Positions 1,682-64,000 of a stretch of DNA of 64,000 bases are shown in pieces. The translations under genes and the position numbers were made by a program. Source of the DNA: Daphnia pulex (lineage: Eukaryota; Arthropoda; Branchiopoda; Diplostraca; Daphniidae); the NCBI RefSeq assembly GCF_021134715.1, contig NC_060020.1, positions 1,736,001 through 1,800,000 of the forward strand. The letters run 5' to 3'. The notes under the pieces are model-generated. The model was not told the DNA's origin and did no database searches. It saw nothing but the letters and a program-made list of their open reading frames with translations. Every line of letters begins with the position of its first letter. The stretch's first letter is position 1.

Positions 1682-3133
1682 ATGAAGTTTGTTGCTGCTT
1701 ACACTGCGTCCAGTCTATTAGTGATTCTCATCGCTGCTGGTCAAACAGCCGACCAATTGCCGGAGAATGGACACGAATCATCAGCGGCTGACCGAAATGT
1801 GGCAGCGTCTAATACTCGCAGTGATTATTCGGGCAATGGTGCGGTCGAAGAAGTAGAAGAGCAACTCGAATCTGAACTCGATTTGAAAAGAATGCTACTC
1901 TACGTCACACCGTTAATGGGTATCTTCCAGAGGAAAAAGTCGGGACGACAGCTGAGTAAGCGATCGGCCAAAGAGCTGTTTTACCAAGGCCGGAAGCGGG
2001 GTGCAGGCCGGCGCCCTCCTCCGATGATGTACAATAAATATTCGGAAGAGATGCAGCAGCCGGATCGGAGCGGGAGTTACGGGGGCTACTCTTCTTCGTC
2101 GAGTTACGGCGGAGGCAGCAGTTACGGCGGCGGCAGCAGTTATGGCTGTTGCGATAAAAAAGACGATCTGCTGCCGATATTAGCTCTCTTAGCACTCTCT
2201 CTACTTCTTCTGTATTTGATTGCAATTGCAACGACGACTGTCGCCGGTCGGCGTCGACGTCGTCTGGCGACAGATCCCAATAACAACGATCTACTTGATG
2301 AAGATATTCAGTCCGATATAGGTATATACATCATCATTGTCTATTTAAGAATTATGCCTTCACATGATGCGGATTGATTGCCTGGTTATTTGTATGAATA
2401 ATTCATTTTCTTTTGGCATCACATCGCATTCTAAAATGATCCTAAAAGGCATTGTTTTCTTGTTTAAAAAAATATCATTAATCAAGTTTGTAAATAGCCT
2501 GTAGGAAATGATTGACGTGCGCTCTTGTTATGCAATGTTCCCGTTAGCGTGAATAACGTGACCTTAAGTATGCTCTCAAATCAAGATATGTGCTTATTTA
2601 TATATACAACAACTAGCTACTAGGCATACGTTCGTAATTTAAAGGGATGGAAAATTAAAGCGCAGACCCTACAGGGCCCGGCGCAGAGCACTGACCTTCG
2701 TAATTAAATGTTCGTGATATGCTTTTTCACCTTGAGACGGTGTTTGTATGGAAGCAATGAGGAAAATTGTACGGGGAAATAGCCGAAAGTCACCGGACTC
2801 GGAGATCTGAAAAATTGAAACTTTTCTGAATTTCTCTTTGCAGAACTGATGGACGCTCCAACCTGGATTTCGATGGTAGATGAACTATGGAACTCTGGCG
2901 AGGATGAATCTAGCGACGCTTGCACTCTCAAGGCCCTTTGCCGCATGAATCGACTGGCCCTGGACTCGCCGGGCACGACGGGCTTAGCAGTTTCGCTGTC
3001 CAGCGTGCCACTCAGCTACCTGCTTCATCATAGACACCAGAAAGGCTTCCTGAGTTACCTGGACGCTTCTTTGATGGGTCGCTATGGAGAGAATTGTACT
3101 ACCATCTTCAGTAGCTGCACTCGCCTCAATTAA
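1682..3133 (+). CDS. Array unit 1: secreted/membrane Gly-Tyr-rich protein with Cys C-domain (unrecognised family)
   Basis: Two coding exons are supported, 1682-2321 and 2844-3133, joined in phase 1 (donor ATAG|GTATAT, acceptor TTTGCAG|AA), giving about 309 residues. In order: a signal peptide (residues 1 to about 23), an acidic stretch, the block L-D-L-K-R-M-L-L-Y-V-T-P-L-M-G (about 70-84), dibasic sites (K-R-S, G-R-K-R-G), a Ser/Gly/Tyr-rich segment with repeated S-S-Y-G-G-G, Cys-Cys-Asp-Lys-Lys, a Leu-rich membrane helix of about 21 residues (L-L-P-I-L-A-L-L ... A-I-A), then T-T-T-V-A-G-R-R-R-R-R. The second exon carries A-P-T-W-I-S-M-V-D-E-L-W, four Cys and an N-C-T sequon. Unlike the middle units it has its own terminal exon. 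I do not recognise the family and assign no function. The ATG was chosen because it opens a clear signal peptide. Confidence 0.85.
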
Positions 3134-3550
3134 TAGGAGTTCAATTATTTTATTTATCTCTGATGTTATACTACCTTTTGCATAACTAAAATGCTCTACA
3201 AATGTCCAAGTATGTTTTGTCGTAATTGTGTTGATGGCATAATGCAGACCTGATTAAAAAACACACAAAATCCTAGAAGCGCTAAGTTACTATGAATAGC
3301 AAATTGATATTACTCTGTCGTTTTCAAATATTTAAAGTTGCGGGTTTTGTTGGCGTGGGACTGAAATGTGTGTGTTCTTGTGTAGGAAATATTAGTATCA
3401 CGGATGTGTGGATTTATAAAAGAGAAATACATACTGATGCGTTGGGTCAAAATTCGTTGAAATGTTTTCCTTGCAGTATAATAAGCCAATAAGCTATCAA
3501 AAACGAGGAGGTGCCGGTGTGGTGGCAGGTCCCTCTTGGTCAAAGAATTG

Positions 3551-4750
3551 CACTTTGCTTCAAGTGTTTAATGTTCAACATTTTCAAATGTGATCGCTTA
3601 CCCACAGAAAATGTTATGAGGGGGAAATAAAAACAAGCCTGATAATCTGGAGTCGTTTGACAAATGAGATTTTTAGTGAATCATTACTGAGAAAACGAAA
3701 ACGGAGAGAGAAAACAGTTGCAGTCAACCGCCTAGCTTGGGAATAAACGTATTCCGTAACGATTTATAATCAACGCCACCAAAAGTTGTCCAAAAGGAAG
3801 AATATGGTGATCTATTTTGTCCTACCTTTATATGCCTGGGAAATACAGCCAGGCATCTACAGTTGCTCCATCCATCCGCTGAAAAATGACACCAGACGGG
3901 ATAGGGACAAAGGTTGTCCTCGTGAATACACCCACATTCACATGGGCGTACACGAGGAAATTTAAAGAAAAGGGGAAGAAGAGAGATCCATAACTCGATT
4001 GACATTGTATTCCAAAGCAATGGGATGCTTATTATCTAAATAAAAATAGAAAATGGGTTACGAAAAAATGTTGACAGAAACAACAAGTCAGGAAAAGTTG
4101 AAAACGAAACACTAGGTAAACCCTAATTGTTAATAAATGAGAGAATGGAAGGTTTACATGTACAGGTTTACACTGCACTGATGCAGGTAATGCAACATTA
4201 AAATATCTAGTAGGTCAGAGGTCAATAAAAGTAAAGGAAATCATTACCCAAAACGATGATCCTGAGATTGTTGCTGGTGACAGGTTAACACCTGCACAAG
4301 AAAAACTTGCACATTGTGTGGGTACGATGGATGGCTCTGGCCTCAAATCTGCAAAAAATAAAGGGTTAGTACATAGTACAAACAAACTATACCATGCAAC
4401 GACAGGGGCACAGGGAAATCACAATCATCGATGCTAGTCAACTAACATTTCACAAATTTGGAACAGGTTTAACTCTTCTATAGCTCCCACAATCATTCTA
4501 TTTCGATTCCTAGTTTTATTTACCCGCTAAAAAGCATGCAGTATAACGGATCGAAGACAAATAAATCTATAGCAATATAATTCTTGTTCTCTGACTGAGT
4601 TTTTCGAAATTTTAAACTAAACGATGGCAGACGACACTTGTCGAATTCTATTCTAATCGATGATACGATATCGATATCGATAGAAATAAAAATGATAAAA
4701 AATCAAACTCCCCCCCTCAAAATCCAAACCGCTAAAAACGATAAGGGAAT
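3551..4750 (+). repeat. Dispersed repeat, copy 1 (about 1.2 kb)
   Basis: This stretch aligns by eye, with few differences, to 24799-26010 in the same orientation. Landmarks shared by both copies are CACTTTGCTTCAAGTGTTT at the left end, GCAGTCAACCGCCTAGCTTG, the hairpin-forming TGCCTGG...CCAGGCA, and CCAAACCGC...AAAACGATAA at the right. I see no clear terminal inverted repeats or target-site duplication. Weaker similarity may extend left of 3551 (AACGAGG-AGGTG against GAACGAGGTG-TTGG). It may be a degenerate transposable element or a duplicated gene fragment; the coding frame at 4141-4437 favours a former protein-coding part. The right end is rearranged between copies, so the limit is approximate. 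Confidence 0.75.
4141..4437 (+). pseudogene. Open frame without ATG inside the repeat
   Basis: A 98-codon frame begins after a stop at 4138-4140 and ends at TAG 4435-4437. It has no ATG near its start, so it would have to be an internal exon or a remnant. It reads R-F-T-C-T-G-L-H-C-T-D-A-G-N-A-T-L-K, then a charged part (K-V-K-E-I-I-T-Q-N-D-D-P-E-I-V-A-G-D-R-L-T-P-A). The same frame in copy 2 is broken by a 2-bp insertion near 25441, while most of the peptide on both sides of the break is retained. The composition looks like real coding sequence. I do not recognise the protein. Confidence 0.4.
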
Positions 4751-4883
4751 AAGTTTTAGTTGAAATGTAATCCATTTCTGTTTGGTATATAATTCCCCGG
4801 TAAGAATGGTAAGAACAAATTTACACAAAACCCGCCCTAATAACACCCCCCCCCCCCTCTTGGAAGCCAAGAGGAAATTTTAG

Positions 4884-5086: not shown

Positions 5087-5846
5087 AAAACAAAAAAAAA
5101 ATAAAAATCAATGTCGAAATAACTGAAGTCTATGTCCACCTTTGCATATACAACCGTTCCAAGTTTCAGCAGGATTTTTTTGCATCTCAGATTTTCCATT
5201 TCACTGTTATATACGTACTACGACCTCTGAATGGCGGATGTAACAGTAGTATCAACCAAAAAATCACTCAGCACGAATTAATAATTATTAGTGGTACAAT
5301 GATTGATGGATGATGAAGAAAGCAACATGAACGATGAGAATCTTTGGGCTGTGGCGAGCGACGAGTCATCAAAACACGCCCGATGGCTCGTTTACAGGCC
5401 GACACTCCAGGCATACAATTGTTAGGCAGTATCCTAGTATACAACATTTCGTATTTTCTGCTTTATTTTACGAACGAGAAGCGAATCGCCTTTAACTCTC
5501 TTGTAATGCATCTCTACATCAAAAATTCGAAACGAGATAGAAATAAGGCGGGAGAAAAGTTGTTGCGCATCTAATGCCTAAAATATAGCGGTTCTTTTTT
5601 TTTATGAATTTAAATTGTAGTAAAAAAGAAAAAAATGTATTATTTTTGGGCGGGTACGAGCTGTTCGTGCAGGCCAACACTGAAAGATGGAAACATCCCG
5701 CCAGTCTCTACTGGAACGAGGCCCGGTGCACTGAAACATGCGCTCTCTCGCGACCAGTTGATTTTACCGTTTCTCTCATTTTCTCTTATTTTTTTGCGTT
5801 TTTTTAATTGCAAAGGCAGTCGGGGCCAAGTTTCGAATTGTTGACG

Positions 5847-5911: not shown

Positions 5912-6443
5912 ATGAATTTCAACAGTGGTCGTAGAAACGTGCTGATTTGGTGGTTTTTGACGGTTATTGTCATCGACGGACAAGGCCAGGCAGGACCCGA
6001 CATGGATGAATTCGAGCAATACAATGGCAACGAGTTTATCCTAAGGTAAAATTGTGGAGGGATTAAATCTTATGTCAGAAATAGTTTTTAAAAAAGTTTG
6101 TATGATAATGGAATCAGGCCAGGTTTAGGTCCAAGACCTCAGCGACAGCCCTCCGCAATGGATCCATTCAGCCGGATGGGAGAGGAAATCATGCTCGGCA
6201 TTCAAAATTTGCGATCCATGATCGACAGTGACTACACCCGAAGTTCTTACGGCGGAGGGGGCGACTATTCTTCGTCGGGAGGTTACGAAGAAGGTGGATG
6301 TTGCAGCAAATTGGACTTTCACACTTTCGTGCCTGGATTCGTCCTGCTGGCCGTCTCGTACTTCCTGTTTTTCCTGCTCAACGCCACCGTCACAAGCGGT
6401 CGACGCCGACGGATGGTCACATCGTCCAACGAAGAAGAAGAAA
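5912..6443 (+). CDS. Array unit 2: divergent Gly-Tyr-rich membrane protein, no terminal exon of its own
   Basis: Proposed exons are 5912-6045 and 6118-6443. The first encodes a hydrophobic leader (V-L-I-W-W-F-L-T-V-I-V-I) and an acidic stretch. The donor is CTAAG|GTAAAA and the acceptor ATCAG|GCC, which lacks a good pyrimidine tract but restores the frame. The second exon has S-S-Y-G-G-G-G-D-Y, G-C-C-S-K-L, a membrane helix (F-V-L-L-A-V-S-Y-F-L-F-F-L-L) and T-V-T-S-G-R-R-R-R, then acidic residues. It ends with a strong donor GAAA|GTAAGT in phase 1. The L-K-x-M-L-x-Y-V block of the sister units is missing. Unspliced, the frame would close at about 6470. No P-T-W-type exon follows before unit 3. 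Splicing to 10513 would give Met at the joint and about 250 residues. Confidence 0.65.
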
Positions 6444-6781
6444 GTAAGTCAATATTTCGCCAAAAGTTTTAAATCTTACAAAAAAAAATGTCCGGTGTTA
6501 TATTAAAACAATGACCGTTGGTATAAGATAATTCGAGGTGAAGCGATGGAACCATTCCTAGGAGGAAAAGGCGGAGTCAAGGAATAGAATTGGCGTCAGA
6601 AAAACCGTTACAGTGTCCGATCCTATAATTGATGTAGGGCGTGTAGAAAGGCTGGCCGGGGTTGGAAATGGTTCTGGTCTTCACTCGCTAGTGGGACGAT
6701 TGCGGCGTCGGTTCTCAGAATCTCTGTCAAAATAAGATCAAAGTTTATAGATCGTGTTCGCTTATAGTTTCCAATTACATA

Positions 6782-7337
6782 ATGAGGAAATTAGTTGTTG
6801 TTTTAACTGCGTTGATTTGTTCGGTGGCCATCATTTCTCATTCGAGCCCCCAGAATGGAATGGTCGGGGCTGCCGAGGCCGGTGCCCAGCCGGAAGAGAA
6901 ATCAACAGTTGACATTGGGCTTGAATCGGAACGTGAACTCAAGTGGATGTTGAATTACGTCACACCGTTGATGGCGATCCTGAGGAGGAGCAATGCAACA
7001 AGATCATCTGGCCGCTCTGCTCGATCCTACAAAAGAAATTATTACGATCTCTCGTTCGGCGATTTCAATCGCAATAACAGATTCAATCGCAATGACTACG
7101 TCGATCGTGATAGTTACGGCTACGGCGGAAGTAGTTACGGGGGCGGTTACGGCGGCGGATGTTGCGATAAGAAAGACGATCTTCTTCCATTGTTGGCTCT
7201 TCTTGGTCTTGCGGGGTTGTTACTCTATTTGATCGCGATCGCCAGCACCACGGTCGCGGGTCGTCGAAGCAACAAACGATCGGTTGGAAACAGCCTAGAC
7301 GAAAACAACTGGATCTTAACCGACGATTACAATATTG
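6782..7337 (+). CDS. Array unit 3: secreted/membrane Gly-Tyr-rich protein, no terminal exon of its own
   Basis: One coding exon of 185 codons plus one base, with a signal peptide (V-V-V-L-T-A-L-I-C-S-V-A-I-I), then E-L-K-W-M-L-N-Y-V-T-P-L-M-A-I-L-R-R (about residues 57-74), basic and Asn/Arg/Asp-rich sequence, Y-G-G-S-S-Y-G-G-G-Y-G-G-G, C-C-D-K-K-D-D-L-L-P, a membrane helix and S-T-T-V-A-G-R-R-S-N-K-R-S. It is the closest relative of unit 1. The donor ATTG|GTAAGG at 7338 is phase 1; without splicing the frame stops at 7394-7396. I find neither an own C-terminal exon nor AATAAA before unit 4. Joined to 10513 it would make about 282 residues. A TCAG at 6714 is a weak candidate initiator. Confidence 0.75.
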
Positions 7338-7773
7338 GTAAGGTCATTTATGCATATCAAATCCGAAAAAAAATTGTCTTGTCTATTAAGAACTAAAACT
7401 TTACCTGTATAACTCGTTTGGCACTAAGCTTCGGTCGCGTTCAATTGTAATTCGCCTGCCATAAATTGCAAACTCCCGAATTCAAATTTGCGCAGCTAAA
7501 TTGCTGTTTGCTGGTGGGCCTGCTCCATCGTTGGGTTGGGCCCATGGTGTTTTCAACTAACGGGACGGACGAAAGTGGATGAATTACCTTTGAGGGTCAA
7601 CTTATTAACACAGGCTCACTATAGGGGAGGAGCAAAGTCTTGAATGCGATTAAGGAGGAGCTTCCCTTTTGCATTTTGCCTCTGAACGTCTTTGAAGCAA
7701 CTGGTTTCAAACGTGCAGTCGTTCGAAGAGATTCCCTTTCACGCTCCGTCTGCATTGTCCGTAGTGCCAGTGT

Positions 7774-7779
7774 TCAGTC
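7774..7779 (+). promoter_or_regulatory. Candidate initiator (TCAGTC) of array unit 4
   Basis: A TCAGTC lies 86 bp before the ATG at 7860. If transcription starts here, the in-frame ATG at 7692 is outside the transcript, which favours 7860 as start codon. Confidence 0.45.
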
Positions 7780-7859
7780 TAAGATCTAACACTCTGTACC
7801 CATTCACCTCAGTCGAGTTTTCGCTTACGTACATTCTGTGCGATTTTGTTTTTAAAACA

Positions 7860-8388
7860 ATGACAAAATTGAGTACCTTTTTGGGGTTCGGCACTTGTGT
7901 CTTGTTCGTGTTGGGACCGTTGGGCCATCAGGCCGATGCCGACGACCAAGAGAGTCTGATGGACTCTGAGTACGAGTTGAAGCGGATGTTGACATTTGTC
8001 CGGCCACTGATGGGAATCTTGCGAAGCGATCCGGTCGTCAAACGCTCGACCGATGTGATGGAAACTGGATGGATGTCATCATCTCGCGCCATTGCGGGAA
8101 GACCACGAGATGACTACGGCTATGGTGGAGGTGGAGATTACGGAGGTTACGGCGGCGGAGGAGGATACGGCGGCGGAGGAGGATACTCCAATTACGGCTA
8201 CGACACTTGCTGTGGACATCAAAAGGATTACTTGTCCATCATCTCCCTCATCGCACTAGGCCTCCTGTTTCTCTTCTTGGTCAAAATGCTCAGCACCACA
8301 ATAGCAGGACGTCGTAAAAAGAGATCGGATGATGACAACGACGACGATCTTCTCTCTCTCGAAGAGCTTCTCTCCGAGCAGGACGTAG
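7860..8388 (+). CDS. Array unit 4: secreted/membrane Gly-Tyr-rich protein, no terminal exon of its own
   Basis: The ATG at 7860 opens a signal peptide (L-S-T-F-L-G-F-G-T-C-V-L-F-V-L-G). It is followed by Y-E-L-K-R-M-L-T-F-V-R-P-L-M-G-I-L-R, a dibasic K-R-S, a Gly/Tyr-rich tract (Y-G-G-G-G-D-Y-G-G-Y), T-C-C-G-H-Q-K-D-Y-L, a membrane helix (I-I-S-L-I-A-L-G-L-L-F-L-F-L-V) and S-T-T-I-A-G-R-R-K-K-R-S, a furin-like site, then a run of Asp. The donor GTAG|GTAATG at 8389 is phase 1 and read-through stops at 8412-8414. The frame is open back to 7692, but the candidate initiator and the signal peptide point to 7860. No C-terminal exon or AATAAA/ATTAAA is seen before unit 5. Spliced to 10513 it would be about 273 residues. 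Confidence 0.75.
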
Positions 8389-8892
8389 GTAATGCGGAAA
8401 AATGTTTTTCGTGATCGGATTATGGCCTCCAGCGGATGGTGTAAACGTTTACATTTGCGCACTAATGGAAACTGTTCCTTGAAAAGAACGGATTCTCAAG
8501 CTTGAAGTCAATCTCCCGAAATAGTTACATTGAGCTATACGGAACGCCTTTTCTACACCCATTTAATGATTAGCATGCAATTTTGTCTTTAAAAAAATTG
8601 GAACATGAAACGGTCATCTGAGTTGGGATATGATCGTTCATATGTTTTTGTAGTCTCGCATAGCTCAATGTCAATGACTTGGATCAAATTAACTTTTTTG
8701 TACCTGACGAGATGGTCGTAGATGTGGTCTGTATTTTTTTACCAATTACTGGATGATAAGTTCATGCGTGAATAGTGGTCATCGACCTCTTCCGGAGGGC
8801 TGGCGAGAACAGGCTAGACTCCTCCTCTATGTCATAGAGTTTAAAGGTAACGCCTCTCAGACACTAGGAGGCAAATTCATTCAAAATTAGCT

Positions 8893-10872
8893 ATGCCCAC
8901 AGCATCTTTTAAGTGTTTGAACATATACCTGTGTTTGTTTTTCAATCACAAGGATCGTCAGTTTGCATTGAGCTGTCCGGTTGATCGGTCGATGTCCAGC
9001 CCGTCTTCCAATCAATTTCAACAGTGCGCTTCTATATTTTTAAAAGGGGTTTGTTTGATTGTAATATCTTTCAGTCTTCATTATTTGATAGAATTCGCTG
9101 GTGCAATCGATCAGATTGTGATGCATCGACCATTGACAGTGCCGTCGAAACAACGAAGAAAGAGCCGCCATCGGTGGGTGGCTACAGTATTTATAGTCAT
9201 GCTTTCAGCTCGGATGCTGATCATGGCTGACAGTCTAACGGCCACTTCTCGGCCGACATTCAACAGTGATCATCCTGCAGAGAACCAACCTGAAAGTGGC
9301 GATTTCCTCGCCATGTCTGATACAGGGACCGGCAAAGAACCCAACAGCCGACATTTCAGAGTAGCGCGTAGCGAATTCTCTGATTTTTGTTTGAATGGCG
9401 ATTGCATTAACGGCGATGTCCTCAAAGTTGTCAGCAAATTAGCCAAGCGCATTCTAAGCGATCCACGGATCCTTGGTCTTCGGACGGCCAGTGAACCAGA
9501 TGACTTCCAAGCTGGCCGCAAAATCAGTTCGTCTAAAAAACGTCGAATCAGTAACACTCGTCGAAGTGATGAGGAAAACGGCGAAAACAACGATCAAAAG
9601 ATGAAAGATGAAGATAAAAAAGCTTCCGATGATACTTCTTCTGAGGAAAGAGCGTCGGTGGTGAAGGTGGACACGACGGTGAATTGTTACGGAGCATCGG
9701 ACGGTTGGGATTCACCTGGCATCTACTGGGAAGATGACGGTTATAACGTTGAAGCTTACGTAAGCGAGGACGAATCCATTCTGGATTACGGCGATACCGA
9801 ACACGCCAGCACTAATGTTGGTGGCGAAGGCGAAAAAGTCTCGGCGGCCCGCGCCATTGACGATTCAAGCTTGTTTGATATTCATTCGTTAACTAGTCGC
9901 GACGATTACTTCGACAACAACGAGCAGATTACTCAAAGGCACGATAAAAATCGGCTCAACGTTCGGTACAATGATCCCGACTCTTATCACGCGTCGACCA
10001 GTTCAGATTCAAACGGCATTCTTAAAGAGAAGAAGTATGGAGTTCCGGGCGGAGTAAAGTATGGCGAAGATGATGGATATCCGGATACTCGGGGAAAGAC
10101 TAAATTATACAATAATTACGGAAGGGATGATGATGATGATAGCAGTAGTGGAGGGGGACAGAAGGGTGGTGGCTACGGGGGAGGCGGAAGCAGTTATGGA
10201 GGAGGTGGGGGCTATGGAGGCGGAAGCAGTTACGGCGGAGGCAGCAGCTATGGGTATGGAGGAGGAGGGGGTTATGGCGGATATGACGATTCTTGTTGCA
10301 AGAATAAATTATTACCGATTCTGTTGGTGGGATTGTTGGGTTTGTTGGCCTTTTTCCTCTACATCCGATCGACCACAGTTGCGGGTCGGCGTAGCATGGA
10401 TGAAAACGATCTCTCTGATGGTAAATCTTTAAGGGTTAGCACCAAGTTATTCGGCAGTAAATTACCCTCTTATGTGAAACATTTAAATAGCTTCTATATT
10501 GCTCCTTTACAGTGCTGCTAGATGGTCCAACTTGGTTGAGCATGGTCCATGAATTGTGGGAGCAAGACGCTGCACTTGGAAACACCGCCTGCACTCAAGA
10601 AACTTTATGCCGGATGAATCGCTTAGCTATGGCCGCACCCGGACAAGCAGGATGGGCAGTTTCACTTTCAAGGTTGTATATTGTGTGCATTTTTTTTTTT
10701 TATTTTTTTTTTTTTTGTTCTAATATTAATTTGATTTAGTTTGCCTTTGAGCTACCTGTTGCACACTCGCCATTCTGGTGGATTCAGTTCGTATGTCGAT
10801 GCATCACTGATGGGCCGATCTGGTGCGAATTGCACTGAACTTTACTTAAGCTGCCCTCGTCTGACATATTAA
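8893..10872 (+). CDS. Array unit 5 plus the conserved C-terminal exons (unrecognised family)
   Basis: Coding exons are up to 10420, 10513-10672 and 10740-10872 (phases 1 and 2), with 606 residues if translation starts at 8893. Starts at 8992 and 9121 (530 residues) are also possible, because candidate initiators (TCAGTT 8958, TCAGTC 9071) lie downstream of 8893. It has a much longer ectodomain than its sisters, with acidic and Lys-rich stretches, then a long Gly/Tyr/Ser tract (about residues 420-470 of the long form), D-D-S-C-C-K-N-K-L-L-P, a membrane helix and R-S-T-T-V-A-G-R-R-S. The last two exons give P-T-W-L-S-M-V-H-E-L-W, A-C-T-Q-E-T-L-C-R-M-N-R, P-L-S-Y-L-L-H, A-S-L-M-G-R and A-N-C-T-E-L-Y-L-S-C, closely matching unit 1. 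The poly-T-rich 67-bp intron after S-L-S is absent from unit 1. These terminal exons may also serve units 2-4. Confidence 0.8.
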
Positions 10873-10937: not shown

Positions 10938-10943
10938 AATAAA
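10938..10943 (+). terminator. Poly(A) signal AATAAA of the array
   Basis: AATAAA lies 66 bp after the stop codon at 10870-10872. It is the first exact AATAAA downstream of the stops of units 2-5; an ATTAAA variant is present at 6502. Confidence 0.55.
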
Positions 10944-11388: not shown

Positions 11389-13486
11389 TTACTTGGCTTT
11401 CGCTCGACATTTCGGTCCCCAATTTTTTTCAGGGTTCTCTTGAAACCGAACAAGTTTCTGCATCCTCGACGACGGATTTCCTTTTGGGTGAGTCGTAAAA
11501 TCGGCTTGAATTGTAACAGGTCGGCTCAAAATATAGTCAGCAGGGGTTGGTTTATCTGACAGCGGTCGTGGCCATGTCTTATCTGGATACTGTTTTTTGG
11601 CAAAGCCTGAGAGTAAAAGAAGCTTGTATAAAGTTAATTGTTTGACTCAAATGAAAAGATATTTACCTTGAAATAAATCCCAAATGACCGACATAGGAGC
11701 ATCCGTTTTAATGGAGAGCGGGTAACAATGAGAGAGGGACACGCAGTATCCAGCATTGAGAATTGCTGATCGGAACATGACTAACGAAGGAACACTTAGC
11801 TTCAACAAGGATGCTGTCGCGTCGAGGCTTAAATACAAAGGATAATTTGGCAGTTCTTCAGATATCACGCTTAAAATGCCACGGATCCGTTTCTCAGTTT
11901 TTAGTTCTCCGAGTTCAGGATTATCCAAACTTGTAAGCAGTGACTGAACAAAATCCAAGTCATGAATTGGTTGCGAATAAAGAGGGCCACCAAAATTTAA
12001 GCGAGAGTGACAAAATTCACATTTTGCATCTGTAGGTGGTCCAGAAGCCCTTGAAAATATCTTTCCCAGTGTTTTTGGTGGTGATCCACCAGCTCCTTTT
12101 GGACATTTCCTATCCTCTGTTTTCATCAAAGGTTGCCAGGATATGTTGTGACATCCAACACATTGATAAACCTGACAATAGTAAAAGTAGAATAAAGTTT
12201 GAATATCAGTAGCCATCTTAATGATTAATAGACCCACCATAGAAAGTTTACTTGCTGATGCTTTGCACTGATTTTTTCCAGTGTGCACAATCACGAAAAT
12301 ACGCACGTAGAAATCAACAGAAACAGAAAGAAGTGGTTGAATGTATCGTCCATATCTTGCAGCAGAGGTCTGAAGAAACTGAAGAATAATCCGCAATGCC
12401 TAATCAAAGAAACACAGCACTATCAATCTGAATCCGATTAAACTTCAAAGGTTTTTACCATTTCGTGACAAGCTTTGGTTTTGATCGAAACGCTTGCGTA
12501 CTTTGCGTAGCATGTTTCTGGGACATTGCCACAGAGTATAGCCTAAAATTTGTTTTCCTTTATTACTAAGAAACTTTTACTAACTAAAACTTGTGTTGTA
12601 AGTAATGATAATACCATGTCGGTGGCAGTAACCATTAGAAGACCTCCATCAGCCACACACTGAACTGCAGCATCAACAAATGGCGAAGGTGACCCATAAG
12701 GATCAATATCAACACAGTGAAATTGTTTTTTGTATCCGTGTTGATACATCAGGATCCTTTAAAAAATGGAGAGAAAAATAAGATGTTTTAAGAAAGTATG
12801 ATGTATACTGTACAAGTTCAAATTACGATGCATCTCCCTCATTAGGAGTAATCAAATGGGAAACATCATTCATTTGGCTGTTTGATGTTATGCTTTCAAC
12901 AGCGGAAGATGACAAGTCATTGGCAATAATGTTTTTGAGTCCTCCAACTTCTTTGGCATATCTGATTGATCTCAACCCAGAGGCAGATAAGGCTTCCAGT
13001 ACAGTCAAGCCATTCTGTTACAAACAATTAGTTTGAAATGTTTTTTTGCCATTAATACATTTTGAATAAAAACTGGTCTAAATTGGTAGATAGTAAAATA
13101 CCTCATAAACTTCCCCTGGTTTAAGGAATGTTTCACCAACAAAACTTTTGTCAGTTTTTTTCATTTGGTCTAAGGAATACTGTCTCAAAACAGCAATGCT
13201 GTAATAAAGAATCTGTCAATTAATACATAATGAAAAAAAGACTGATATCTTAAAAATATCACCTGAGGTCCCGGTTAAATTCTTGAACAGGATTATAGAA
13301 AACATTGTCCTCAGATCCAGGAAAGCAAACTTGTGCTTTTCCTTCAGTTATCAGGGTTCCTTGGATTGTGGGTTCTTTTTTTACTTTACTGTGATCTTCT
13401 TGAGAATTACTCATAACTTCTAAATTAGCATCAGTAGATGAAGGTTGATTATTCTCACTTCCACTTTCATCAACACAATCAGCCAT
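11389..13486 (-). CDS. TRMT1: tRNA (guanine(26)-N2)-dimethyltransferase, TRMT1
   Basis: Eight exons join in frame: 13263-13486, 13102-13198, 12827-13014, 12615-12756, 12459-12542, 12238-12399, 11667-12171 and 11389-11606, giving 539 residues. The enzyme methylates G26 of tRNAs with S-adenosylmethionine. Diagnostic parts are [11 protein letters not shown] near the N-terminus (written here with Y for F-N in places: [13 protein letters not shown]), the SAM-site region [13 protein letters not shown], the catalytic-type [21 protein letters not shown], and a C-terminal zinc-type set C-V-G-C ... C-E-F-C-H. The length fits the family. The frame is open upstream of the ATG back to about 13540 but has no earlier ATG. 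The gene is head-to-head with DPP3. Confidence 0.95.
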
Positions 13487-14151: not shown

Positions 14152-17022
14152 ATGTCTGAAGTTGCTGTGAAGGATTTTGTTCTCCCGAATGAACAGCCTG
14201 TGGTTCCCTTGGAATGTGTTACTGCATTTGAAAATTTAACTGCTAATGAAAAAGCTTACGCACATCACCTCAGTAAGGCTTCATGGTATGGTGGATTGAT
14301 TGTTTTGATTCAGGTTAGTAAAGTCTAATATACAGCAACAGTTGTTCAGATGTTAACAATTAAAAGTCTGTTATGTATAGACATCAGTTGAATCAGGGTC
14401 ACTCTTCTCCATTCTTCACCAAGTTTTTAGCCAGGAAAGTGTCGATGACCTGAAGAAACAAGCCTTAGAGAATGGATTGTCAGAAGATGAATTCCAGGTA
14501 TAGTATACATTTTCATGTGTAGTAAGGTCCTGTCTTTATTTAAAATGTTGAATGTTAATTCCAGGCTGTTCTTGTATTTACCTGTGGTGTCTATGCAAAT
14601 ATGGGCAATTACAAAGGCTTTGGAGACTCTAAAATAATTCCAAACATTACAGCTGATAAACTTGAAAATTTTTTGATTGCGTCGAAAGCTTTCCAAAGCA
14701 ATGCCGACCTAGTAAAAGTGTGGAACCGAATCAAGAACTTAATATATGACTTGAGCCCCAAAAAGTGCCACCTTGGTCTTGGTGACAAAGGAACCACAAC
14801 ATACTTCTCATCAAACTGTACCAGTGAAGATGCCGATATTGTTAACCGGTATTTCAAGTCCATTCAAATGGAGGGTTACAATAATCGTGTAATAAAAACC
14901 GAAGCCAATGGCGTTGCACACTATGAGGTAAATTTCGGTTTTATTTTTTAAATATTCGTGAATTGATTTTGATTTTATTTTTCTTAGATCCGTTTGGCTT
15001 CTGTTGAAACCGGTCCTATGGCTGGAATTACTCGCGATCCGGAGTCATTTGAGGGACATCAGTTTAGTGTAACTCGTGGAGATTACTCTCCGCTTTTGAA
15101 GTTAGTTGTTGAAGAACTGCAGAAAGCTAAGGTGAAATTAGAACCCAGCACATATCTTTATTACTTGCTATCTCAATTTTATGATTTTAGAAATTCGCCG
15201 CTAACGACATTGAAGCGGCCATGCTAACCGAGTACATCAACTCATTTACTACGGGATCGCTAAATGATCATAAAAATGGGTCGCGTCATTGGGTCAAGAA
15301 CAAGGGACCCGTCATTGAAACGTAAATTTTTGCACTTTATACTTCCCAATTTAAGTTTCTTACTCAATAGCTTTTTTATCCAGATACATTGGCTTTATTG
15401 AAACATATCGTGATCCGGCCGGCATGCGTGGCGAGTTCGAAGGTTTTGTCGCCGTTGTTAATAAAGTCATGTCAGCTAAATTCGGAGTATTAGTGGCTGG
15501 TGCCGAAAACTTTTTGCCGCTGCTTCCGTGGGCCTCAACATTTGAGACGGACAAATACCTGAAACCAGATTTCACTTCCTTGGATGTATTGACTTTCAGT
15601 GGTAGTGGAATACCCGCTGGGATCAATATCCCCAATTGTAAGGATAACTGAAAATAGTATTTTGTTTTCTTTCGTTTACTCCAGAGTTTTGCCATTTTAG
15701 ATGGTGAAATCCGACAGGACGAAGGTTTCAAGAACGTATCGTTGGGCAACGTCATTCCTGCTTCCTACAAGGACCCAAATATTTTCTTCATCTCTGAAGC
15801 AGACAAGCAACTTTTGATTCGTCACAACACCGAGTCGTTTGAATTGCAAGTCGGTCTGCACGAATTGCTGGGCCATGGTAGCGGTAAATTGTTCCGTAAA
15901 AATCCCGATGGTAGTTACAACTTCGACATGGATAGCGTAAAGGCATCACTGGACTCTGGTGAAGAGGTTTGTTGCAAAATTTCTTGATTAGAGCTTTATA
16001 ATATCTTAATTACGTTTGTGTGTAGCTGTCGTGGTACGAAGAAGGTGAAACCTACGACTCGAAGTTTTCTACAATTTCATCTTCATACGAAGAGTGCCGA
16101 GCAGAATGTGTTGGCCTTTATTTGTCTCTCAATGATGACGTTTTAAAGTAATAAGCTTTTAACATTTATTTTCTTCTTATTGATTTTATGACACGATCGT
16201 TTTTTGTGTGATTAAGGATTTTCGGTCACGAAGGTGAAAAGGCACAGGATATTATTTACGTTAACTGGCTCAGTCTGCTTCTAAATGGTTCGACGAGAGC
16301 CATGGAGTTTTACAACCCGAAAACGCAGTCGTGGATGCAGGTCTGTAAAACGTTCGGCAGAGTATTTAGGTAGAGCTGCTTCTGTAATGTTTCTTTGAAT
16401 TATAGGCTCATTCGCAAGCCCGATACGTTATCCTTCAAGTGCTTTTGGAGGCTGGCCAGGGTTTGGTAAATGTTGCCAAGGTAATCGGAAGTGACGGCAA
16501 AGATGATTTGTTGCTTTCGCTCGACAGATCCAAAATCAGCACCGTGGGAAAAGAAGCCCTTGGCATTTTCCTTCGTAAACTTCAAGTAATTTATTCGTCC
16601 TTTTTTCGCTTAATGATGGTCTTTTTGCATAATTTTGATTTTTCGCTAATAAATCTAAGGTTTACAAGTCGACCGGCAATGTAGAAGCTGCTCGGGCCAT
16701 GTATGCTAAATATTCTGAAGTCTCTTCAACTGGCCCATATCCATTTGCTGAGTGGCGAGCTATGATTCTTGAAAAGAAGCAGCCCAGGAAGATTTTTGTC
16801 CAGTCCAACACCCGACTTGAAGGTATGAAGTAAATCCCGTTTCTCAAGAAAATCCGTTTTAAAAAAAATATTTACGATATAGGGGAGACGGTGAAGCTAG
16901 TGGAGTATGGATCCAGTGTTTCGGGAATGATCCAATCTTGGAATGAACGCTACGAAACGAGTTCCCTTGTTCACCAAGCACTAGAAGAGTTGTGGGTTAA
17001 AGATGAACCATTCTTTGTCTAA
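14152..17022 (+). CDS. DPP3: Dipeptidyl peptidase III (zinc metallopeptidase M49)
   Basis: Twelve coding exons join in frame: 14152-14313, 14381-14497, 14565-14927, 14988-15131, 15191-15321, 15384-15637, 15701-15966, 16026-16147, 16217-16340, 16406-16585, 16660-16822 and 16883-17022, giving 721 residues, close to the human length. The enzyme removes dipeptides from the N-termini of short peptides in the cytosol. The M49 zinc site H-E-L-L-G-H is at residues 444-449 and the second motif E-E-C-R-A-E at 501-506, so both zinc-ligand motifs are present. Other family landmarks include G-V-Y-A-N-M-G-N-Y and [19 protein letters not shown] is the start of the cytosolic form. The frame stays open 5' to an acceptor at 14117, allowing an N-terminal extension from 13878 (see findings). 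Confidence 0.96.
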
Positions 17023-41047: not shown

Positions 41048-41566
41048 TTATTCTTCTTCTTCTTCCTCCTCTTCTTCTTCTTCCTCTTCTTCTTCTTCAT
41101 CTTCTTCGTGAGTTTGAGCAACGCTGGTAGTTACTTCTTCTTCTTCTTCGTTGGTTACTTCATCAGCTGGCGATATGGTATCGACAGGATTTTCTGGCGT
41201 CGGCTGTTCGTCGTCGATGGACTCTTCCACTGGGGCGGATTCAGTTTTCCTCCGGATGGGCTCCTCCTCATCACCCCAGGTGAATTCCGCCACCGGTTCG
41301 GGTTCGATCGCTTCCGGTTCTGGCACTGGTGGCTCTTCTTCCACGACTGCTTCTTCTGTCGCCACAACTTCTTCCTCGACGATTTCTTCGACTACGTCTG
41401 TCACTTCCGCTTCCGGTTGTTCTTCCACCGCCACCACCTCCTCCTCAACCGCTGCAGCAGCTTCAACTTCTGGATTATTGCTTCGTTTAAAGGTGAATTC
41501 CTCCTCACCGCCCCAAATGTCCTCCGAAGCCTTGACGATTCCAAACACAAATCGATCAAAAGAAAT
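41048..41566 (-). CDS. Alternative terminal exon: Glu-rich C-terminus of the 41-54 kb gene
   Basis: A phase-0 exon behind the acceptor TGTTCAG at 41567 reads I-S-F-D-R-F-V-F-G-I-V-K-A-S-E-D-I-W-G-G-E-E-E-F-T-F-K, then about 120 residues rich in Glu, Val and Pro, and ends in an almost pure poly-Glu tail with TAA at 41048-41050. It can replace the terminal exon at 42624-42767, as both follow a phase-0 donor at 42837. The full protein with this exon would be 539 residues. The repeated F-T-[FW] context after acidic stretches (E-E-F-T-F-K; A-E-F-T-W-G-D-E-E-E) suggests short linear motifs. The large plus-strand frames here are antisense artefacts of the GAA/GAG repeats. Use in the same transcript unit is inferred from phase and order. 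Confidence 0.6.
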   Translation of the reverse strand: MSFDRFVFGIVKASEDIWGGEEEFTFKRSNNPEVEAAAAVEEEVVAVEEQPEAEVTDVVEEIVEEEVVATEEAVVEEEPPVPEPEAIEPEPVAEFTWGDEEEPIRRKTESAPVEESIDDEQPTPENPVDTISPADEVTNEEEEEVTTSVAQTHEEDEEEEEEEEEEEEEEEE

Positions 41567-42623
41567 CTGAACAGTCCGTTGTTGTTGTTGTTGTTGTTGG
41601 TTTGGTGTTGGATGGCGTCAACGTCTCGCAGAATTAGGAAGGAAAAGAAAAAGCCATTCGGGGTTATGAATATTTCCTAGAGAGTTAAATAAATGATGTG
41701 TCCAATCCAAGCGAAAAATTTCACGAGTGGGAAAAATAAAACAGTGTGTAGGAGAGGAGAGTGAAAGTTGAAAGAATTATATTTCCAAGGAAGAATATGA
41801 TAGTAAAACGAAGGCGCTTTGTTATATAAACTTTTGTGATTGTGATCATTAGAGAGGATAGTGGGGGTGATGCACTACCAGGGGATAGAAATCATATCGT
41901 CACTAAAAAAAACAAAATCTACCGCTGGGAAACATGGTGAAATAGTTAAAATTATTTCAAATAGCGATCAAAATACAACCGATCCTGATGTTGTTCATTT
42001 TTTTCTCTTGAAGCGATCCCGTTGAATGTGGATTATATTAATGAAGGGGGAAAAAGGAGCATGAAATAATATTATACTATATAATAGAGAGAAGCCACAA
42101 CAACGAAACAAAAAAAAAAGAGAAATTAAATAAAAATGAATTGCAACACGCGCGCATTGTCTTCGTGTGAACGATTCGGCACTCATCAATCAGTGAGGAA
42201 ATAACAAGTGTTTGTGTAATGGATGTGTGTGTGTTGGTTTGTGTGTGCCAATAATTAAGTAAATTTCAAAGCAGCTCGCGCGGTTATTTGTTTGAATGAA
42301 ATTGTGCGACAGACCGCCCCGGTGAGTGGAGGGAGGAACACATCAGAGCAAGACACTTGTTTTGATTGTAATTTTGTTTCCCTCTCTAATGGACGACTGA
42401 TGCCCAGTCAAATTAAGGAAATAAAAAAGAGAAAAAAAAAAAAAAAATAAAACTCGTCCGTTGGGTTATTCAGCATATGTCATATGTGTGTCAGTTTTGA
42501 ATTTGAAAAATTTGGTTTGTAATGTGATGTTTTGTTAATTAAAAGATGTTTTAATTAAACGAAACCAGTTATTATTATTATTATTAATATTAATATTATT
42601 TAGTGTTGATTGTTTTTGTTTTA

Positions 42624-55389: not shown

Positions 55390-56940
55390 CTACAGTCCAT
55401 TCTTCAATTCATCCAAAAATACACGGCATTTTTGTGACAGGATCTTGGCGGCTTCAGTGAAGAGGACCTCCGGCGCCAGTGCTCCAGTAGACTCGATGTA
55501 AACTAAACACATTTTCAAATGCATCGCTAAAGTAAGGAATAAGCAAAAATCCAATAACAATACTTACAGATGAAATGGTCGCGTGCTCGGGTCAGCTTTA
55601 CAGTGTCCTCTTTTAGATCTTCGTGACGGAATACGTTGCGGCTGCAGATGTCATATCGGGCATCGTTGACTTTGGCAACCTTCTTTTCACCTGAAATAGA
55701 ATAAAAAGGTAGTGCTTCACACTAATTAAGCTAGAAGAAAAAATATAGTATGTAGCAAACCTGAGTCGACCAAATCAATAACCCCAGGGGAAAAGCACTT
55801 TTGTAATCTTTGGGCAGCTTCACCTTCCACTTCCTTAAGAAGTTTCACTTGTGGTAGGAGACGGTAAAATGCGGTAGCTTGAGAAAATAGAAAAATAGTT
55901 TTTGTTTAAATCTCGGTCCAAAAATTCTTAATCATAAAAAAAAACAATAAAACTAACCAACGGGTGAGAATTTTGCATGTTCTCGTCCGGTCCCTTTCAT
56001 TGCGTGCAATTTGATGTCAAGTTCGTGACCAGGTCTCATTTTTGCGATTAGAATGTTATCGTCAACTGGTCCAACTGCATCAGGGGTAAAGATATCTTTT
56101 TGGCCACCCAGTGGAATCCATTTCAAATGAGATGTCAAAACTGAAAAAAGTAGGTCAGCATTCTGTCGAAAAAAAAAGGTTTGAGTTTCCCTTCTTACCT
56201 CTGAAATCCCTGTACAAGTGTTCAGGATTTGTATGATCTTTAGTCCTTTGAGGATTCCACGAACATTTCACTTTTAACTCAAATTCAAGTGTATCTTCAG
56301 GAGTCCCAGTATCATCATCTAAAATGAGAGATGGGGTAACAAAGATTCAGTTATATGAAGTAAGGTGACAAAGAAAAGAATGGGTGTTTGGAGTATACCT
56401 TCAGCTCTGAATTCAAACAATCTTGGGTCAGCTTTCAATGGTATCAGTCCCAGTCTGTGGGCCAAGACTTCATCTTGGATGATTGAGGTATTGTTGAACA
56501 TGAAGACTTTGTCGAAGGCCATGGTGGGAATATCAGACAGCAAAATACGACGAAAAGCATTTGGTATGGCTGGATCAACACCAATCAAATCAAACTCCAT
56601 TTCCATATTTTCCATGCGGACAATGTTAATTTTGAGCCTCTACAAAATCAGAAAAAATGGTAATGCTCTCTTTTTATCTACTTATAGTGTAGAACTTTTC
56701 TTAGAAGAACCTTTTTGAACTTTTCAAAACTCCAACTGTCGTCAAACCCATGATGATTTCCTGGGAAGTCTGTGGCTTCAGCCTAAATAGTTATTTTTAT
56801 TATTAAATTTGGTTGAACTTAGGAAGATTTCTGTTATGTAGTATTACATTAAGAACTTCGAATTCTGTCAGCACGAGTTCATTCCTACTTTCATCAATGT
56901 ATTCCTTGCTTGATGAATATTTAACTTTACTTTTACTCAT
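55390..56940 (-). CDS. POLR1C: RNA polymerases I and III subunit RPAC1 (AC40)
   Basis: Eight exons join in frame: 56848-56940, 56711-56782, 56399-56639, 56199-56318, 55958-56140, 55761-55877, 55568-55690 and 55390-55502, giving 353 residues, about the family length. This is the alpha-like subunit that pairs with RPAC2 in the assembly core of RNA polymerases I and III. Diagnostic sequence includes [57 protein letters not shown] and a C-terminal F-Y-I-E-S-T-G. It lies between the two Tyr/Gly-rich paralogues on the same strand. The ATG chosen is the first in frame. No anomalies seen. Confidence 0.95.
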
Positions 56941-63141: not shown

Positions 63142-63694
63142 TCAGTAGTGAGCGATGGTGCAGCGGAAGAGGATGCGACGAAACGCTCGCCGGAAGTCTT
63201 TGTTGAAAATGGTGTAAATGACCTGAAATCATCGGGAAAAAGAAAGATCGGTGAAAAACCCTGGTACGTCAATTCGATCAATACTACTCTTAAAGCCAAC
63301 TGCAAGTTATTCGTCGAATTCACGAGAGCAATGAATTTGCCCTTTTCTTTTTCTCCTTTATCGATTTGGCTGCTACACACGCGTCTGTCAGTTAGCAGAG
63401 AGAGAGGCATGTGACTGTTGGGCCCTTATTTCATCATGAATGGCTTACGGGATTGAGGGCCGAATTGATGTAGCCGAGCCAAAAAGCGAAGGCGAAGCCC
63501 CAGGGTTGAATGTTGCACGACGGGCAGACAGGAGCCAGCAAGTAGAGGAAAAAGAAGGGCAACCAACAGGCGATGAAGGCTCCCATGATCAGTCCAAGGA
63601 TGAGAGTCGCTCTTTTCTCCCGCTGACGGCTGATCCTCCTCCGCTCACGGGCCGGGTCTTTCTCTCGAACAACCACTCTCCCAGTGTCGATCAC
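63142..63694 (-). CDS. Biogenic-amine G-protein-coupled receptor, last two exons (partial)
   Basis: Two phase-0 exons, 63449-63694 and 63142-63222, encode the end of a class A GPCR; the 5' part lies beyond the right edge. Visible parts are a basic end of intracellular loop 3 (R-E-R-R-R-I-S-R-Q-R-E-K-R-A-T-L), TM6 with the aminergic C-W-L-P-F-F motif, a short loop with C-P-S-C, TM7 with W-L-G-Y-I-N-S-A-L-N-P-V-I-Y, and helix 8 I-F-N-K-D-F-R-R-A-F-R-R-I-L-F-R-C. N-P-V-I-Y is rebuilt exactly across the intron. The tail is very short (R-C-T-I-A-H-Y then stop) with a Cys that could be palmitoylated. E-K-R-A-T-L-I-L-G-L-I-M-G-A-F at TM6 resembles octopamine/tyramine or alpha-adrenergic-like receptors, but the ligand class needs the missing part. 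Confidence 0.9.
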
Positions 63695-64000
63695 CTGTCG
63701 GTGGCATTATTTAAAAAATATACAAGAAAAGGAAATGTCAGTTAACATTTAAACTGTTTTTTTTTTTACGCTTTGTTTATTAAAGTTAATGGAACTATAA
63801 TAAGAAAGAAAAGAAATATGCTTGATGTAGCATAATGTGTCACTGCGTAAAATAAACTGCAGGTGTTGCTACAACAACCTGGTCGTAAAGACAAACTTCC
63901 CGGCCATAAAGTTCACGTAAACGTATTAAGAATTTTTTTTTTTTACTTTTTTAAGTCTACCGAAGTCTACCGTCTAAACGTATATACGAAGACCGGAAAG
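63695..64000 (-). other. Intron of the biogenic-amine receptor gene (partial)
   Basis: This stretch lies beyond the acceptor (GACAG) of the TM6-TM7 exon and contains no further exon; T- and A-runs only. Confidence 0.6.

Follow-up and report, generated by a model that had tools for sequence, protein, structure and literature searches.

Units and C-terminal exons at the locus

The DNA analysed here (the window) is a stretch of 64,000 nucleotides of Daphnia pulex, bases 1736001-1800000 of contig C4 (NC_060020.1), which carries on its plus strand a tandem array of long coding exons (units) together with C-terminal exons of DM4/DM12 type, a candidate variable-first-exon locus (Table 1). The initial annotation had described four such units ending at phase-1 GT donors (6443, 7337, 8388 and 10420), with two C-terminal exons adjoining the last unit only, and a check against the sequence has borne out both statements. 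A leader, a Gly/Tyr/Ser tract, a Cys-Cys pair (CC), a membrane-type helix and a basic motif have been found in all four, the tract being less regular in the unit starting at 5912 than in the other window units. The four donors had been called compatible in phase with the acceptor before 10513, and each joint does lead into the same open tail of 96 residues followed by a stop, with the joint codon ATG for the 5912 unit and GTG for the other three. Left unspliced, the middle units were said to close within 6-20 codons; the frame of the 5912 unit ends after 9 codons, that of the 6782 unit after 19 and that of the 7860 unit after 8. For the last unit two starts had been offered, 8893 and 9121. The latter is favoured: it is exactly where the translated match to a second array (below) begins, and 8893 lies upstream of a conserved initiator-like site at about 8960. 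Overall, that description has held for layout, donors, phases and tail, and has failed for an absence of poly(A) motifs discussed below.

Upstream of these four units (units 1-4) lies a fifth, unit 0, which has its own tail and represents the complete form of the family. Unit 1 has a 5' intron of 72 bases (6046-6117) that splits the leader region and is absent from its partner in the second array. No tail of their own was found locally for units 1, 2 and 3, either by a tail search of the genome or by translated comparison of the arrays. A further unit (C4:1734818-1735063) lies just upstream of the window; it contains CC, a helix and the motif SGRRRKR, lacks a leader in the same exon, and ends in a possible phase-1 donor, A/GTAATT. 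Tail 0, which belongs to the next unit, would in principle be available to it as well.

Table 1. Features of the window (positions in the window; a slash marks the exon boundary). Comparisons are with the partner in the second array; pn/ps is given with its bootstrap 95% interval.
Feature	Position	Strand	Basis and remarks	pn/ps	Ks (NG86; high values rough)	Codons compared (lengths)
Unit 0, first coding exon	1682..2321	+	open reading frame; leader, Gly/Tyr/Ser tract, CC, helix, basic motif; donor G/GTATAT, phase 1	0.42 (0.33-0.52)	1.61	200 (213/226)
Tail 0, DM4/DM12-type C-terminal exon	2844..3133	+	no inner intron; acceptor CAG/AACTG	0.12 (0.06-0.20)	1.33	
Conserved non-coding block, probable promoter of unit 1	5659..5745	+	79.5% identical, same place in second array			
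Unit 1, exons 5912-6045 and 6118-6443	5912..6443	+	donor A/GTAAGT, phase 1	0.49 (0.36-0.64)	1.10	149 (153/176)
Probable core promoter of unit 2	6681..6714	+	TCACTC (A+1 ~6683), GGTTC at +28			
Unit 2 exon	6782..7337	+	donor G/GTAAGG, phase 1	0.41 (0.32-0.55)	1.37	175 (185/185)
Probable initiator of unit 3	7774..7779	+	TCAGTC, conserved in second array			
Unit 3 exon	7860..8388	+	donor G/GTAATG, phase 1	0.37 (0.27-0.47)	0.98	154 (176/156)
Probable core promoter of unit 4	8958..8991	+	TCAGTT (A+1 ~8960), GGTCG at +28			
Unit 4 exon	9121..10420	+	donor G/GTAAAT, phase 1	0.41 (0.35-0.51)	1.08	322 (433/349)
Shared tail, exon a	10513..10672	+	acceptor CAG/TGCTG; codon comparison with second array			
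Shared tail, exon b, with stop codon	10740..10872	+	tail search, translated search, sequence check			
AATAAA after shared tail	10938..10943	+	motif scan			
TRM tRNA methyltransferase	11647-12399	-	Pfam			
M49 peptidase	14559-14951	+	Pfam			
RNA polymerase Rpb3/Rpb11-type domain	56319-56639	-	Pfam			
Rhodopsin-type receptor	63434-63706	-	Pfam			

A Pfam scan took in six proteins, the two tails and units 0, 2, 3 and 4 (unit 1 was not scanned). Tail 0 matched DM4_12 (PF07841) at 26.3 bits, above the cut-off of 22, and the shared tail alone reached 19.7 bits (E value 0.0014), just under it. The two tails are 61% identical and have Cys 27, 33, 85 and 92 in common. Four conserved cysteines are the hallmark of DM4/DM12, and the shared tail is classed as DM4/DM12-type from its sequence. 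Matches below the cut-off, DUF4766 for unit 0 (E 0.031) and DUF6805 for unit 4 (E 0.045), were not used; NCBIfam gave no match for tail 0 or unit 2, and no PDB sequence matched tail 0. By hydropathy each unit has a leader and one strong helix (peak 2.2-2.8 in the window array) followed by basic residues, no strong helix appears in the tails, and a membrane topology is predicted for the unit proteins. Some of the basic motifs, such as RRRR and RKKR, match the proprotein-convertase pattern; those of units 2 and 4 in the window array do not fit it.

The genome searched for relatives comprised 133,188,837 bases in 13 contigs. The DM4_12 profile gave 19 matches genome-wide, 15 of them over the cut-off (one of these together with its neighbours). 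Inspection by eye of the listed open frames in seven other DM4_12 regions revealed no further array of this kind. Near 4261 kb of contig C7 (C7:4257001-4267000), a single membrane-helix exon was seen by eye close to DM4_12-type exons, and the combination of helix and DM4/DM12 may also exist outside the arrays. Two DM4_12 regions of C7 also contain globin-like open frames, presumably Daphnia-type haemoglobin. A single scan of viral_contigs gave 37 pattern matches and one of genome_contigs gave 36, none of them a relative, which is what an animal gene would lead one to expect.

A second array and coding constraint

Genome searches with the tail and with the core of unit 2 have located a second array (array B; the window array is array A) on the minus strand of the same contig, from about 975.7 to 959.0 kb, inverted and about 0.76 Mb from array A. 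Its order, obtained from blastn and open frames, is unit 0', tail 0', units 1', 2', X, 3' and 4', and tail 4'. Both arrays thus consist of unit 0 with its own tail followed by units 1, 2, (X), 3 and 4 and a tail, and units 1-3 are tailless in both; because the same layout recurs, it is beyond chance. The tail search gave eight matches in the genome, six of which are exons of the four tails in the two arrays, the other two being weak (E 0.007 with stops, and E 0.22). All 10 matches to the unit-2 core lie in the two arrays or immediately upstream of the window. Unit X ends at a phase-1 donor (G/GTAGTT) and has no partner in the genome search, which returned only itself and a weak match with stops (E 0.47). 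The unit upstream of the window is likewise without a partner, its search giving itself, five weak matches to array units and a match on contig C6 at E 1.75. Clear relatives of two searched units were found only in the two arrays and directly beside the window array. In total, 12 units stand against four close tails in or directly beside the arrays, both counts being lower bounds that come from searches.

For units 1, 3 and 4, a tree of the unit cores joins the copy in A with that in B, with support of 99, 99 and 93 (IQ-TREE) and 1.0, 0.997 and 0.88 (FastTree). The two copies of unit 2 pair weakly (56 and 0.90, respectively), and the pairing of unit 0 has no resolution. The duplication therefore probably came after the array, tailless units included, had formed. 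Separately, window positions 3519-4805 are about 73-78% identical to C4:963615-962151, between units 3' and 4', and are perhaps a dispersed repeat; the one frame tested had no Pfam match.

Coding constraint was estimated from codon alignments of the A and B copies with gapped codons dropped, as the ratio of nonsynonymous to synonymous proportions (pn/ps) and as synonymous divergence (Ks) (Table 1). The bootstrap intervals of units 1-3 all lie below 0.65. The tails are the most constrained part, the shared tail having a pn/ps of 0.08 (0.04-0.16) at a Ks of 0.73. No copy contains a stop; in a crude neutral simulation of units 1-3 (500 runs each), the mean was 5.4, 7.2 and 6.3 stops per copy and the minimum 0, 1 and 1. 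Judged from these codon comparisons, units 1-3 are under purifying selection. Low pn/ps and the missing stops suggest that both arrays have maintained the tailless units as coding sequence. It had been suggested to ask whether relatives keep the single terminal exon; when the question was put to the paralogous array, units 1-3 proved intact, constrained and tailless in both.

The surroundings of the five donors have been compared between the arrays in ungapped form. Identity was 57/75 in the last 15 exon bases, 10/10 at the GT and 15/20 at +3 to +6, and further downstream 26/75 at +7 to +21, 36/150 at +22 to +51 and 70/245 at +52 to +100. For the donors of units 1-3 alone it was 33/45 (73%) in the last 15 exon bases and 16/18 at +1 to +6, then 17/45 at +7 to +21 and 16/90 at +22 to +51, which is chance level. 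Conservation thus stops just past donors that have been kept at a Ks of about 1.0-1.4, and therefore fits spliced sites rather than read-through to the local stops.

Promoter-like blocks, candidate splice targets and competing explanations

The 300-base stretches upstream of the units in the two arrays are 46-59% identical overall and contain conserved blocks. These were compared with the arthropod initiator and with a downstream promoter element (DPE), taken as RGWYV at +28. The block before unit 1 has no clear initiator shared in the alignment of the two arrays. The site before unit 2 recurs in array B as TCATTC with GGTTC at equal spacing, a motif match and not proof, this looser motif having no background count. 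The initiator before unit 3 is found in array B inside AGTGTTCAGTCT. Before unit 4, motif and spacing are identical in both arrays; across the 64 kb window, TCAGTY is accompanied by RGWYV at +28 in one of 42 cases on the plus strand, the unit 4 site itself, and in none of 25 on the minus strand. A conserved TCAGT also lies upstream of unit 0. The conserved initiator- or DPE-like motifs before units 2-4 may mark separate promoters.

Local last exons have been sought by comparing plus-strand stop-to-stop segments of at least 15 residues from array A, translated, with array B at E values up to 0.05. This search picked up the known exons, even one as short as the first exon of unit 1 (E 2e-4), and found no convincing conserved local last exon between the units. 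The weak matches that it gave there sit mostly at promoter-like blocks. In addition, three CAG/TAG sites located before units 2, 3 and 4 were selected by eye and read as acceptors, which gave 22 codons, of which 9 were identical, 1 synonymous and 12 non-synonymous between the arrays. The 53 codons compared in exon a of the shared tail comprised 31 identical, 21 synonymous and 1 non-synonymous. Because the translated search is weak between the units and the codon changes at the candidate sites are mostly non-synonymous, the shared tail is, on this comparison, the only conserved downstream target with coding constraint found within the array. The nearest gene identified beyond it belongs to the TRM family and lies on the opposite strand.

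The absence of poly(A) motifs between the units has been rejected as evidence. The initial annotation had stated that no exact AATAAA lies between 6444 and 10937, which is wrong, since one occurs at 10303 inside the unit 4 coding exon; an ATTAAA also lies at 10868, across the stop codon of the shared tail. The three gaps between window units contain one motif against about 1.55 expected from base shuffling, and the four gaps of array B contain 0, 0, 3 and 10 against 0.66, 3.29, 0.68 and 6.17. The count in the window is thus at chance, so scarcity carries no weight, and it does not hold for array B.

It is quite probable that, as was first proposed, the locus uses alternative promoters and joins each of several long first exons to a single constant tail by splicing, and the second array lends support through its tailless, constrained units and conserved donors. 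The array would then be a single compact transcription cluster for arthropod membrane proteins of DM4/DM12 type. A separate promoter would serve each of units 1-4, whose long first coding region would be made of a leader, a Gly/Tyr/Ser-rich ectodomain, Cys-Cys, one membrane-type helix and a basic motif. Splicing from each phase-1 donor would skip whatever units lie downstream and lead to the same two C-terminal exons, with predicted introns of 4069, 3175 and 2124 bases for the three long splices. At least four proteins would result, with almost nothing in common beyond the constant, cysteine-containing tail of 96 residues. Several observations weigh against splicing to a constant tail. The donor of unit 3 in array B (GTATTA) is weak. 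Weak translated matches occur before unit 2 (6598-6714, E 9e-4) and before unit 4 (8723-8800, E 0.009), and two out-of-register matches of 9-11 residues (E 0.03-0.04) follow the unit 2 donor. The three CAG/TAG sites are conserved and readable as local acceptors, and the shared acceptor has 15 pyrimidines in 20 positions compared with 14-15 in the best local acceptors; the polypyrimidine score fails to separate them and is therefore counted against the proposal. The poly(A) motifs add to these points, being at chance number in the window gaps and frequent in the last gap of array B. Finally, the whole comparison is one of two paralogous arrays within one genome.

A rival explanation is that units 1-3 are independent working genes, in which the donors lead to short, weakly conserved local last exons and the proteins lack the DM4/DM12 tail. 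The donors would look real in this case as well, a conserved TAG at 6691 would give unit 1 an end of 14 residues (MGRLRRRFSESLSK) that is partly similar in array B, CAG sites precede units 3 and 4, and the weak translated matches lie before units 2 and 4. Such genes are nevertheless unlikely: the non-synonymous share at the three sites (12 of 22 codons) contrasts with that in exon a (1 of 53), the candidate sites coincide with or adjoin initiator-like motifs, and in array A the stretch from each of them to the next unit is free of AATAAA and ATTAAA. A tail supplied by trans-splicing between separate transcripts, rather than within one long pre-mRNA, would agree with the separate promoter-like blocks before the units, and cis and trans joining are indistinguishable from sequence. 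In both arrays, however, units and tail are close together, share a strand and keep a fixed order, and ordinary cis splicing therefore suffices, which leaves trans-splicing very improbable. The earlier rival view of units 1-3 as truncated copies or pseudogenes that have lost their last exon could draw on the failure to find a local tail exon after them. It is strongly disfavoured, to the point of being barely credible, because these units are intact, constrained and tailless in both copies, with low pn/ps at a Ks of about 1.0-1.4, no stops and conserved donors.

If alternative first exons do share the tail, the two arrays might form a promoter-choice system in which single cells or tissues pick one of about 10 ectodomain and membrane modules for a few constant DM4/DM12 tails, an extension that we think improbable. 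It is just as doubtful that the arrays serve arthropod surface- or matrix-protein diversity, working like the clustered protocadherins after evolving from an unrelated family.

Elsewhere in the window, the minus strand at 41048-41617 has a long open frame in which Glu and Val are very abundant and which is partly simple repeat.

Comparison with known systems

Of the elements of a variable-first-exon locus, those seen here are tandem homologous coding first exons (units 1-4 in array A; 1', 2', X, 3' and 4' in array B), phase-compatible donors, and constant exons after the last unit only. Clustered protocadherins and UGT1A have several large variable first exons with their own promoters and constant 3' exons, and the locus had been likened to them. 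The likeness stands for organisation only: the six scanned proteins contain no cadherin or glycosyltransferase domain, cadherin repeats gave no match in units 0, 2, 3 and 4 up to E 1, and the insect odorant and gustatory receptors are a closer precedent. Two papers describe an organisation with shared C-terminal exons for these receptors (PMC6175461, PMC6720082), the latter for beetle receptors in which the N-terminal exons are unique and those for the C-terminus shared. As at the present locus, tandem long first exons are followed in such receptor loci by shared C-terminal exons, and the tail is likewise under the strongest constraint here. Insect chemoreceptors are seven-helix proteins, whereas the parts here are a leader, one membrane-type helix and a DM4/DM12-type tail; the Pfam scan gave no receptor family match in units 0, 2, 3 and 4 or the two tails.

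Among the literature matches listed for DM4/DM12, which include a paper on Osiris genes, nothing concerns this locus, and the same holds among the matches listed for shared or alternative first exons in Daphnia, for initiators and for shared exons of chemoreceptors. Standard gene prediction could well mistake units 1-3 for truncated genes or divide them wrongly. If the proposed splicing is correct, the two paralogous arrays would offer a natural replicate for studying how the choice between promoters, and splicing over long distances to a shared tail, are kept up. Overall, there is good support for placing the locus, although its family is unrelated, with a kind of gene organisation that is already known, and a poorly studied arthropod family would then independently use the first-exon-choice organisation known from chemoreceptors.

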